Source: Kineococcus sp. NBC_00420 (GTDB lineage Bacteria > Actinomycetota > Actinomycetes > Actinomycetales > Kineococcaceae). Taken from it: DNA of 64,000 nt. This document shows, piece by piece, positions 14,001 through 17,002 of this stretch. Location of the stretch: the NCBI RefSeq assembly GCF_036021035.1, contig NZ_CP107930.1:868001-932000 (forward strand), written 5' to 3'. Below the pieces are notes generated by a model. The model had not been told where the DNA came from, did not search any database, and saw only the letters and a program-made list of their open reading frames with translations. The stretch's first letter is position 1. The number at the start of each line of letters is the position of its first letter. Both the position numbers and the translations under genes were made by a program.

Positions 14001-14294
14001 TCAGATGTCGTCGCGCACGGTGTAGAGCGTGAGCTTGCGGTCCGCGACGATCGTCCCGAGCCGTGAAGCGCCTTCGGGGGTCTGCCGGAACGCGCGGTAG
14101 GCGTTGTCGTTCTCGACGGACTCCCAGCGCTCGACGATCGACACGTGGGTCTCGTCGGCGTCGTCGATGAGGACCTCGCAACCGAGGTTGCCCTCGAAGG
14201 CGCGGGTGGCCTCGAGGGTCTCGGTGAGGATGGCGGGAGCGTCGGCGACGTTCTCGGCCTTGATGGTCAGTTCCAGGATGGCGATGGTGGTCAC
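14001..14294 (-). CDS. Antibiotic biosynthesis monooxygenase (ABM) family protein
   Basis: A 97-residue single-domain protein with the dimeric ferredoxin-like ABM fold: a beta strand TTIAILELTIK, helix, then ETHVSIVERWESVENDNAYRA. Relatives include quinol monooxygenases (YgiN) and heme-degrading enzymes; no heme or metal ligand is evident, so the substrate is open. Start GTG 14294 begins the conserved region. It lies 10 bp beyond the recX stop on the same strand and may be cotranscribed with recA-recX. Confidence 0.75.
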   Translation of the reverse strand: MTTIAILELTIKAENVADAPAILTETLEATRAFEGNLGCEVLIDDADETHVSIVERWESVENDNAYRAFRQTPEGASRLGTIVADRKLTLYTVRDDI

Positions 14295-14304
14295 GCGCCG
14301 GAGG

Positions 14305-14826
14305 CTACGCCTCGCCCTGGATCTCCTCGCGCACGACCCGCACCACGACGTCCGAGGGGAAACCCCGACGCGCCAGCATCCCGTACAGACGGCGTTCCCG
14401 GACTGCACGTTCCAGCCCGTGCATCGCGCCCGCCTTGCGCTGCACCAGAGCCCGAGCGGCCTCGACCTGCGACGCGTCGTCCACGGCCTCGAGGGCCTCG
14501 GCCGCGGTCTCCTCGCCGACGCCCTTCATCCGCAGTTCCTGGGCCAGGGCTCGACGGCCCCGTCCACTGCTGCGGTAGTGCACCCAGCCCTCGGCGAAGG
14601 TCTTGTCGTCGACGAGACCGACCTCCTCGAAGCGGTCGAGCACCTCGAGCGCGACCTCAGCCGGGACCTCCTTCGCCGCGAGCTTCTCGGCGAGCTGGGC
14701 CCGGCTGCGCGGTGCCCCCGTCAGGTGCTGCAGGGCGATGGTGCGGGCGACCTCGTGCGGGTCGGCCTCCCGGTCCGGGTTCTCGTCCGGACCGGGGGGG
14801 ACCTGTTCTCGGGACCGACGGCTCAG
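14305..14826 (-). CDS. recX: RecX, modulator of RecA, apparently initiated at a CTG codon
   Basis: RecX caps and disassembles RecA filaments. The conserved region begins around [19 protein letters not shown] and includes the hallmark [14 protein letters not shown] and LRMKGV motifs. The frame is open from 14922, yet contains no ATG, GTG or TTG until GTG 14643, which would remove the first RecX helical repeat. A CTG at 14826-14824 overlaps the recA stop as CTGA, exactly like the ATGA/GTGA couplings elsewhere here, and GAGGAGAAGG (14843-14834) lies 7 nt upstream. Starting at CTG gives 173 residues, a normal RecX length. Product identity is firm; the start is inferred. Confidence 0.85.
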
Positions 14827-15875
14827 AAGTCGACCTTCTCCTCGACGGCGGCCGCGACATCGGCGGGCGCGTCCATGCGGGCGCCGATGCCGAGCTTCTC
14901 CTTGATGCGCTTCTCGATCTCGTCACCGAGGTCGGGGTTGTCGCGCAGGAAGGCGCGGGCGTTCTCCTTGCCTTGGCCGAGCTGGTCGCCCTCGTAGGTG
15001 TACCAAGCCCCGGACTTGCGCACGAACCCGTGCTCGACGCCGAGGTCGATGAGGCCACCCTCGCGGGAGATCCCGAGGCCGTAGATGATGTCGAACTCGG
15101 CCTGCTTGAACGGCGGGCTGACCTTGTTCTTGACGACCTTGACGCGGGTGCGGTTGCCGACGGCGTTCGTCCCGTCCTTCAGCGTCTCGATGCGGCGCAC
15201 GTCGAGGCGGATCGAGGCGTAGAACTTCAGCGCCTTGCCGCCCGTGGTCGTCTCGGGCGAGCCGAACATGACGCCGATCTTCTCGCGCAGCTGGTTGATG
15301 AAGATCGCGGTGGTGCCGGAGTGGTTCAGCGCACCGGTGATCTTGCGCAGCGCCTGCGACATCAGGCGGGCCTGCAGGCCGACGTGGCTGTCACCCATCT
15401 CGCCCTCGATCTCGGCCTTCGGCACGAGGGCCGCGACGGAGTCGATGACGATGATGTCGAGGGCGCCGGAGCGGATCAGCATGTCCGCGATCTCCAGCGC
15501 CTGCTCACCGGTGTCCGGCTGGGAGACCAGCAGCGCATCGGTGTCGACGCCCAGCTTGGCCGCGTAGTCCGGGTCGAGGGCGTGCTCGGCGTCGATGAAG
15601 GCGGCGATGCCGCCGGCCTTCTGGGCGCTGGCGACGGCGTGCAGGGCGACGGTCGTCTTGCCCGACGATTCCGGGCCGTAGATCTCGACGACGCGCCCGC
15701 GGGGCAGACCGCCGATGCCGAGCGCCACGTCCAGGGCGATGGAGCCGGTCGGGATGACCTCGATCGGGGGCCGGACGTCGTCGCCCAGCCGCATGACCGA
15801 GCCCTTGCCGAAGTTCTTGTCGATCGCGGCGAGGGCGGCATCGAGGGCCTTCTCGCGGTCCGCAGGAGCGGGCAT
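14823..15875 (-). CDS. recA: Recombinase RecA
   Basis: Forms ATP-dependent filaments on single-stranded DNA, drives strand exchange and triggers LexA cleavage. The 350-residue protein has Walker A GPESSGKT (67-74), the L2 loop region [17 protein letters not shown] and the C-terminal domain ending EEKVDF. No intein is present. Start ATG 15875; AAGG and GGAG lie just upstream. A LexA box sits in the promoter about 135 bp upstream. It is coupled to recX through a 4-bp overlap. Confidence 0.98.
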
Positions 15876-16001
15876 GTCTCCACCTTGTGGTCTGGGTTCC
15901 AACTGACTCGGGGAACGCTAGGACAGACCTCCGACACGACCCCCGAACGACGAAGAGGACTGTGGACGGAGGAGCCTGACGAGCCCCCTGTGGACACGTC
16001 G

Positions 16002-16030
16002 ATGCTATCCGTACAGGTGTTCGATCCCAA
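16002..16030 (-). promoter_or_regulatory. recA promoter with LexA box in the spacer
   Basis: On the minus strand a -35 TTGGGA (16030-16025) and -10 TAGCAT (16007-16002) are separated by exactly 17 bp. The spacer carries TCGAACACCTGTACGG (16024-16009), a LexA box with a perfect left half and a degenerate right half. Predicted start near 15995 leaves a leader of about 120 nt before recA. Confidence 0.8.
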
Positions 16031-16087
16031 CTCGACGAGACCCCGGCGTGTCGGGGTGCGTCCGCCGAGAGGTCTGGAGGTGCGCGG

Positions 16088-17002
16088 GTGATCGCTGTGT
16101 CAGATGTGCTCCGCAACCACGCCTCCGCCGCCGGCGCCGGGGACTGGCTGCAGGCCCTCCCGGCGCTGCTCGCCCGGCTGGAACGTCAGTGGGGCATCGC
16201 CGTCGGCCGCGCGTTCACCGGGGCCACCGAGGCCTACGTCGCGGAAGCGACCACCGCCGACGGGCGACCGGTCGTGGTCAAGGTCCTCCTCCCCCTGAGG
16301 GAGGGCGAGGCCCGCTACGAGATCGGCGCGCTCCGCCTGGCCGGGGGCCGGGGGATGGTCGCCCTGCTGCGCGACGACCCCGACGCGGGGGCGCTGCTGC
16401 TGCCGCGACTGGGCCCACCACTGCACGCGCTGGGGCTGCCCACCGCGACCCGCCACGACGTCCTCTGCGACACCGTGGTCCGGGTCTGGCGTCCGGCGCC
16501 GGGGTCCGGGCTCCCGACCGGCGCGGAACGCGCACAACAGCTCGCCGCCCGGGTCACCACGGCGTGGGAAGCCCTCGGGCGGCCCTGCTCGGAGCAGGCG
16601 CTCGACCACGCCCTCCGCTGCGCGCGCCGGCGCGAGGCGGCCCACGACGACGAGCGGGCCGTGCTGGTCCACGGCGACGTGCACCAGCTGAATGCGCTCC
16701 AGGACGGCGGACGGTTCACCCTCGTCGACCCCGACGGCCTGCTGGCCGAACCGGAGTACGACCTCGGGACGGTGATGCGGGGCGACCCCGTCGACCTGCT
16801 GCGCGGGGATCCGCACGCACGGGCCCGGCGCCTCGCGGCCCGGACCGGCCTGGACCCCGCGGCCGTCTGGGAGTGGGGGGTGATCGAGCGGATGGCGAGC
16901 GGCCTGCACTGCACCGCGATCGAGCTGCAGCCGCTGGGACGCCAGACCCTGCTGGCCGCCGAGGCCGCCGCCCAGCACGACCGGACGACGGGCGGTCTCT
17001 GA
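16088..17002 (+). CDS. Aminoglycoside/hydroxyurea phosphotransferase family kinase (APH(6)-like)
   Basis: A 304-residue protein of the family that includes streptomycin 6-kinases and hydroxyurea kinase. The ATP-site Lys is in RPVVVKVLLPL, the Brenner motif is VHGDVHQLN with catalytic Asp197, and the metal-binding motif is LVDPDGLL. Family members inactivate antibiotics by phosphorylation, but many chromosomal copies have unknown natural substrates, so resistance is only a possibility. GTG 16088 has GGAGG at 16076-16080. It is divergent from recA and begins a run of three plus-strand genes interrupting the recA-DUF3046 neighbourhood. Confidence 0.85.
   Translation: MIAVSDVLRNHASAAGAGDWLQALPALLARLERQWGIAVGRAFTGATEAYVAEATTADGRPVVVKVLLPLREGEARYEIGALRLAGGRGMVALLRDDPDAGALLLPRLGPPLHALGLPTATRHDVLCDTVVRVWRPAPGSGLPTGAERAQQLAARVTTAWEALGRPCSEQALDHALRCARRREAAHDDERAVLVHGDVHQLNALQDGGRFTLVDPDGLLAEPEYDLGTVMRGDPVDLLRGDPHARARRLAARTGLDPAAVWEWGVIERMASGLHCTAIELQPLGRQTLLAAEAAAQHDRTTGGL

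Follow-up and report, generated by a model that had tools for sequence, protein, structure and literature searches.

Initiation at CUG is rare in bacteria: the codon is reported to account for 0.024% of bacterial starts and to work with 0.86% of the efficiency of AUG, and an initiator tRNA variant with a changed anticodon stem is described as discriminating less against it (PMC11497404). At leadered mycobacterial starts CTG is not enriched (0.03%; PMC4633059), and in work on M. tuberculosis it has served as a 'non-start' change (PMC11260477). The Streptomyces regulator gene sigR is described as starting at a conserved GTC, repressed by IF3, and has been used as an argument that start prediction relies too heavily on ATG, GTG and TTG (PMC5472188). 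Termination-reinitiation has been reported for ATGA overlaps, in which the stop and start codons of neighbouring genes on the same strand share 4 nt and the second gene lies in the -1 frame (PMC6728339). At recA-recX itself, mycobacterial recX is reported to begin inside recA, with an overlap of 32-35 bp and co-transcription of the two genes; in M. tuberculosis recX has an ATG start inside recA and a promoter within recA (PMC3062782, PMC6662834). In E. coli, a terminator between recA and recX with approximately 10% readthrough is said to limit recX transcription (PMC3542578, citing an earlier paper). Non-canonical starts, ATGA overlaps and the overlaps of mycobacterial recA and recX are already known. 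The open-licence papers in PMC contained no report of a recX with a CTG start codon, nor of several actinomycete genes with conserved CTG starts of the CTGA-overlap type.

We analysed a window of 64 kb, the whole stretch of DNA considered here, which covers positions 868001-932000 of a one-contig, 5.43-Mb Kineococcus genome. The genus includes a radiation-resistant species, and the recX of K. radiotolerans is listed as Krad_1493 (PMC2587704). In the window, recX follows recA, and a CTG in the RecX frame overlaps the upstream TGA by 4 nt on the same strand (Table 1); the junction reads ...GAGGAGAAGG-TCGACTT-CTGA-GC... on the minus strand. This arrangement resembles the ATGA overlaps in the length of the shared stretch, the strand and the -1 frame, but its first base is C, and the main text of that report mentions neither CTG nor GTGA (PMC6728339). 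An NTGA overlap with translational coupling is expected to have ATG, GTG or TTG as its start, whereas recX has CTG and no canonical codon nearby in frame. Like sigR, recX would be an actinomycete regulator with a conserved non-canonical start; the GTC of sigR, however, is reported to have an extensive RBS and has been experimentally shown (PMC5472188), whereas the recX CTG is known from sequence alone. As in mycobacteria, recX would begin inside recA; in M. tuberculosis, by contrast, the start is an ATG and a recX promoter also lies within recA (PMC3062782, PMC6662834). As in E. coli, a structure lies between the two genes, but the Kineococcus hairpin is inside recX codons and lacks a T-tract, and termination at it is a proposal (PMC3542578).

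Based on the comparisons below, we consider it likely that recX is translated from CTG 14826 by re-initiation after the recA UGA, and that the weak CTG and the hairpin hold RecX below RecA. The published weakness of CUG counts against such a start.

Table 1. Coordinates of features at the recA-recX junction and of related genes. Positions are those of the window unless a genome position or another locus is given.
Feature	Position	Strand	Comment
recA	14823..15875	-	ATG 15875 chosen by eye; 3' end GTC-GAC-TTC-TGA
Proposed recX start codon CTG	14824..14826	-	CTGA overlap with recA stop TGA 14825-14823
recX	14305..14826	-	173 codons from CTG plus stop
GAGGAGAAGG, Shine-Dalgarno-like	14834..14843	-	Within recA; AAGG ends 7 nt before CTG
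GC-rich hairpin	14766..14799	-	Stem CCCCCCGGTCCGG / CCGGACCGGGAGG, mismatched at one position and closing a loop of 8; lacks a T-tract; proposed attenuator between recA and recX
First canonical in-frame start GTG	14641..14643	-	Rejected as main recX start
RecX_HTH1 domain, residues 27-65	14632..14748	-	Pfam; lost with a start at GTG 14643
RecX_HTH2 domain	14491..14610	-	Pfam match
RecX_HTH3 domain	14332..14469	-	Pfam match
Three tandem tRNA-Met genes, initiator-type	L236:11518-11951		Ordinary anticodon arms; on the minus strand of L236
Kinase-like gene	genome 1309294 (L252)		After mycoredoxin-like gene; weak NCBIfam kinase matches, no Pfam
RlmA-like methyltransferase gene	genome 2251510 (L327)		Pfam Zn_ribbon_RlmA
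Sucrase/ferredoxin-like gene	genome 1065118 (L338)		Pfam Suc_Fer-like

The RecX frame lies at -1 to that of recA. It is bounded by a TGA at 14925-14923 and runs from 14922, upstream of where recA stops, to its own stop at 14305. Its earliest ATG, GTG or TTG is GTG 14643-14641, at the end of HTH1. The preliminary description had reported this open frame, the lack of canonical codons before GTG 14643, the overlap of CTG 14826 with the recA TGA and GAGGAGAAGG 7 nt upstream, and each of these observations was borne out. It had also counted 'seven or more' GTGA/ATGA couplings; a simple gene caller returned eight in the window, seven GTGA and one ATGA. The listed recA ORF begins at TTG 15902. A 648-codon open frame lies antisense to recA and recX (14145-16091, plus strand); such frames are usual in GC-rich DNA, and this one shows no gene evidence.

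When started at CTG, the 173-residue product contained RecX_HTH1 (PF21982), HTH2 (PF02631) and HTH3 (PF21981), all above the Pfam cut-offs, with HTH1 reaching 64 bits only with the upstream start. When started at GTG 14643, it lost the first RecX repeat, as had been claimed: the leftover match of 23.9 bits fell under the cut-off of 26 and lay on the HTH2 stretch. The product also matched 18 NCBIfam RecX models, every one below its curated cut-off; the best, NF001061, scored 166.6 bits against an equivalog cut-off of 264. These models describe narrow subgroups, and the RecX assignment is carried by the Pfam domains and the position after recA.

Comparison of the junction in relatives, which the preliminary description had put forward as a check, revealed CTG at the same place in all eleven Kineococcus genomes. 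In each, the order recA-recX, the frame of recX and the position of the CTGA are unchanged, and a sequencing error is very unlikely because the CTGA is present in 11 assemblies. Relatives with an intact canonical start elsewhere had been named as grounds for abandoning the CTG; the genus offered no consistent canonical alternative. Specifically, ten of the eleven genomes contained no ATG, GTG or TTG from -200 to HTH1, and in the exception, L004, a GTG lies at +20 and encodes a Val within the peptide. CTG is the sole near-cognate start codon upstream of HTH1 common to all 11. An in-frame stop occurs at -31 in L010, at -19 in L012 (a second genus of the family) and at -7 in L123, and in these three loci CTG remains the sole ATG, GTG, TTG, CTG or ATH codon before HTH1. 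At the recX position no swap of CTG for a canonical start was seen in relatives, where TTG alone is possible as long as RecA ends in Phe-TGA.

Substitution rates in HTH1 of the eleven Kineococcus genomes were 0.122/0.115/0.335 by codon position, and HTH1 is therefore translated; purifying selection on it is at least as strong as on HTH2/3. The stretch between CTG and HTH1 carried no clear coding signature: the rates were 0.16/0.277/0.309, codon differences were 118 synonymous vs 357 non-synonymous, and GC content by codon position was 0.88/0.65/0.81. The missing pattern may be explained by a short linker that also forms the hairpin. RecX is kept in the CTGA frame in 11/11 genomes although the length of this stretch varies. 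After CTG, GC3 was 0.70-0.85 over codons 2-14, compared with 0.94 for codons 40-59 and 0.96-0.97 at the end of recA. Low values of 0.86 for codons 20-29 and 0.90 for codons 30-39 blur the edge of this dip.

Beyond the genus, 183 loci were fetched and 174 analysed, eight having no recA and one no nearby RecX domain; removal of nine duplicates left 165 distinct junctions. In 136 of these, recA ends in TTC-TGA. CTGA at the end of recA is unremarkable alone because the conserved last Phe-TGA of RecA forces it. The tests therefore rest on the absence of other starts: conservation of the recX CTG is by itself weak, and recX alone cannot prove initiation. Canonical starts were missing from -60 to HTH1 in 25 of the 68 junctions with RecX in the CTGA frame, as compared to 3 of the 97 others (Fisher 1e-8, a value that ignores the relatedness of the loci). 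These 25 CTG-only loci comprise 10 from Kineococcus, L012, five from the Georgenia/Oceanitalea group (L028, L029, L077, L122 and L123), eight from family f8 and L143 of family f9. ATT, ATC and ATA were also missing between -60 and HTH1 in 24 of them. A tree of 102 rows out of the 165, which included all 25 CTG-only loci and left out most named rows, requires eight changes of the CTG-only label, at least six of them by well-supported branches; the state thus arose or was lost repeatedly. NAGG stood exactly 7 nt before CTG in 24/25 CTG-only junctions (L008 being without it) vs 3/43 and 3/97, a pattern that may in part reflect shared phylogeny, AGG being part of the RecA C-terminal K/E-V codons.

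The survey for other genes of this kind covered 2.4 Mb (44%) of the genome, in which a home-made, codon-usage-based gene caller, not an annotation, returned 2168 genes of at least 80 codons. Fifty-seven rows were flagged for missing starts and 16 were inspected closely, the rest being judged probable shadow frames or mobile or broken genes by composition or context. Besides recX, three genes in this part of the genome lack a plausible canonical start in the vicinity of a CTG that forms part of a CTGA overlap (Table 1), and the upstream gene of each ends exactly at the CTGA. The four genes amount to 0.18% of those called vs the published 0.024% of bacterial starts, figures obtained by different methods. 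Overlap counts in the same 44% were 260 for GTGA, 145 for CTGA, 68 for ATGA and three for TTGA, incidental overlaps being included, above all among CTGA; the base before TGA was C in 910 of the 1494 called genes that end in TGA (61%). On the minus strand at ~1911084 of the genome, outside the window, a frame that by sight is hydrolase-like has neither ATG, GTG or TTG nor a CTGA at its beginning; it may be a broken gene or a further unusual start.

The three sister genes were followed through the eleven Kineococcus genomes. The sucrase/ferredoxin-like gene was found in seven (E 1e-40); CTG stood alone at the CTGA in 7/7, the 75 nt upstream of the anchor being free of canonical codons, and the last residues of the preceding gene were A, R, V, A, A, S and S. 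The kinase-like gene was found in ten, with CTG alone in seven, TTG in one (L253) and GTG in two (L255 and L261). Of the seven, five overlap the preceding stop; L257 and L259 have their CTG past it. In L253, TTG replaces CTG at the same place, beyond the upstream stop; L255 and L261 also retain CTGA, 3 and 2 codons before the GTG, respectively. For the RlmA-like gene, alignable in ten genomes (L337 has no N-terminus), the counts were five with CTG alone, three with CTGA and a downstream GTG (L330, L332 and L335), one with TTG (L334, with a GTG further in) and one with GTG (L336), an exchange less clean than that of the kinase-like gene. In two sister genes, TTG and GTG thus alternate with CTG at roughly one position, the behaviour expected of a start codon. 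The canonical codons that the sister genes do have are found ~40-160 nt downstream of the CTG or a long way upstream of it, within the preceding gene; the internal ones would, if used, cut conserved sequence, and in some RlmA-like genes the candidate is a Val codon in the zinc-ribbon Cys motif. The upstream genes end in the codons TCC, CCC; CGC, AAC; GCC, CGC, GTC, AGC and TCC. To judge by sequence, at least three genes other than recX appear to use a CTGA-type start and look the same. An altered initiator tRNA as the cause of CUG use was considered and rejected: the three tandem tRNA-Met genes carry the ordinary GGGCTCATAACCC arm.

Relative to the recA stop, counting from its first base, the hairpin in the N-terminal codons of recX spans 26 to 59 nt downstream, and its 55-nt fold has a free energy of -31.1 kcal/mol (z -4.42). 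Defining a stem as at least 11 Watson-Crick pairs, with one mismatch allowed and a loop of 3-10, within 120 nt after recA, we found one in 75/165 junctions, as compared to 1/161, 0/165 and 6/165 windows in the recA and recX bodies and 4/165 shuffles. HTH1 is not reached by 73 of the 75 stems, and 68 are preceded by an in-frame start (the CTG itself being counted at CTG-only loci); the stem thus usually lies within recX codons. It was present in 20/25 CTG-only loci vs 55/140 others, and by sight its sequence differs among lineages of the order. Among amino-acid-invariant columns of nine Kineococcus species, 8/9 were codon-invariant in the stem vs 23/77 elsewhere (p 0.001). Pairwise covariation was weak, the stem being nearly invariant in the nine species and two relatives folding otherwise. 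Synonymous-codon shuffles gave a mean z of -2.0 over 25 loci, with -0.74 for the window genome and several values near 0 or positive; the stem count and the codon-invariance test are clearer. The recurrence of a hairpin in the N-terminal codons of recX across the order, in differing sequences, is new.

The structure has the GC-rich hairpin of an intrinsic terminator and no T-tract after the stem, and 0-2 T were present in the following 8 nt in 72/75 junctions. A scan of 14200-16200 for terminators and sigma-70-like promoters found none on the minus strand and did not call the hairpin. At gathering cut-offs, Rfam matched only Actino-pnp in the whole window and no known RNA element at recA-recX; the match is a cis-regulatory RNA (RF01688, 53588-53649, minus strand, 69.4 bits). 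The recX hairpin, with no T-tract, is proposed as a probable attenuator between recA and recX.

Several readings dispense with a start at the CTG. A -1 ribosomal frameshift at UUC-UGA would yield a RecA-RecX fusion and would suit both the frame of recX, which is -1 to recA and opens upstream of its stop, and the strong hairpin downstream. By sight, however, GAC-UUC-UGA contains no slippery heptamer. Known frameshift stimulators stand at a short, fixed spacer, whereas the start of the hairpin is 26 nt away from the stop's first base in the window and ranges from ~+3 to +80 in the other CTG-only loci. The sister genes follow other last codons, and in some relatives TTG or GTG substitutes for their CTG, the TTG of L253 lying beyond the stop. 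Frameshifting is accordingly very improbable. Initiation at an internal codon, either GTG 14643 or the ATG at +98 to +119 in relatives, would leave the upstream part untranslated. These are the sole canonical starts available, and the stretch before HTH1, lacking a clear coding signature and bearing a hairpin conserved at the nucleotide level, could be read in this way. Yet HTH1 is under purifying selection at least equal to that on HTH2/3 and needs the upstream start to score 64 bits, the ATG of the relatives sits inside HTH1 and is missing from the window genome, and RecX stays in the CTGA frame in every Kineococcus genome despite length changes before HTH1. We regard an internal start as highly improbable. 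Finally, recX could begin between CTG and HTH1 at a different non-canonical codon, codons two bases from ATG, such as GTC, being the candidates that remain; sigR is an actinomycete precedent beyond CTG (PMC5472188). But no further near-cognate column upstream of HTH1 is common to even 4/11 Kineococcus genomes, and ATT, ATC and ATA are missing from -60 to HTH1 in all but one of the CTG-only loci, which makes such a start highly improbable.

Another explanation accepts the start at CTG and denies it a regulatory meaning: the codon would be tolerated as the remainder of the RecA Phe codon, with the amount of RecX set elsewhere. The frequency of TTC-TGA at the recA end and of C before TGA in the called genes, both given above, speaks for this explanation. 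Against it, the codons upstream of the sister genes could often become GTGA by synonymous change, yet C persists (7/7 in the sucrase/ferredoxin-like gene), an argument that is weak given C at 61% and the relatedness of the strains. We consider mere tolerance a serious possibility, somewhat short of an even chance. Indeed, the simplest reason for the CTG is the fixed last Phe codon of RecA together with the commonness of C before TGA, and selection for a weak start is not needed. A low level of RecX is compatible with the published CUG efficiency and with the hairpin; the fixed Phe codon is also enough to explain the CTG.

Re-initiation at the CTG would proceed as follows. Ribosomes finishing recA at UGA 14825-14823 would step back one base, and initiator tRNA would re-initiate on the overlapping CUG, perhaps assisted by the purine-rich AAGG 7 nt upstream. 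The conserved last Phe codon of RecA, UUC in a GC-rich genome, leaves room only for CTGA, or for TTGA after a synonymous change, and so locks the overlap to CTG. Most re-initiation would fail at the weak CUG, the hairpin would form, and few transcripts or ribosomes would enter recX; the hairpin would probably limit transcription or mRNA continuity into recX unless a re-initiated ribosome follows. What the sequences show is the frame, the absent canonical starts, the conservation, the interchange of codons in sister genes and the recurrence of the hairpin. Beyond these, we infer re-initiation, its efficiency, the function and purpose of the hairpin and a low level of RecX. The preliminary description had proposed coupled re-initiation on CTG, perhaps as a means of keeping RecX low relative to RecA. 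The start itself is now backed by comparison, in eleven Kineococcus genomes, in other families and at three more CTGA genes, and coupled re-initiation would be the natural reading of a 4-nt overlap.

More tentatively, and with somewhat less than even confidence, CTGA may join the working stop-start overlaps as a fourth kind, in Kineococcus as well as in several other actinomycete lineages. Post-termination ribosomes would then evade discrimination against CUG at several conserved genes unseen by annotation rules, and at recA-recX, where the hairpin lies within the recX codons, re-initiation on CUG would determine if transcript and protein extend into recX. Of the NUG codons, CUG is the one on which bacteria are thought hardly ever to start, and mycobacterial work has treated it as a null start. 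Should the overlapping CTGA starts function, re-initiating ribosomes must discriminate among start codons differently, and the natural gene set described here allows a direct test. Gene prediction that admits only ATG, GTG and TTG as starts would shorten or overlook such genes in GC-rich genomes. In Kineococcus, the recX CTG would provide a simple genetic means of altering the RecA:RecX ratio.
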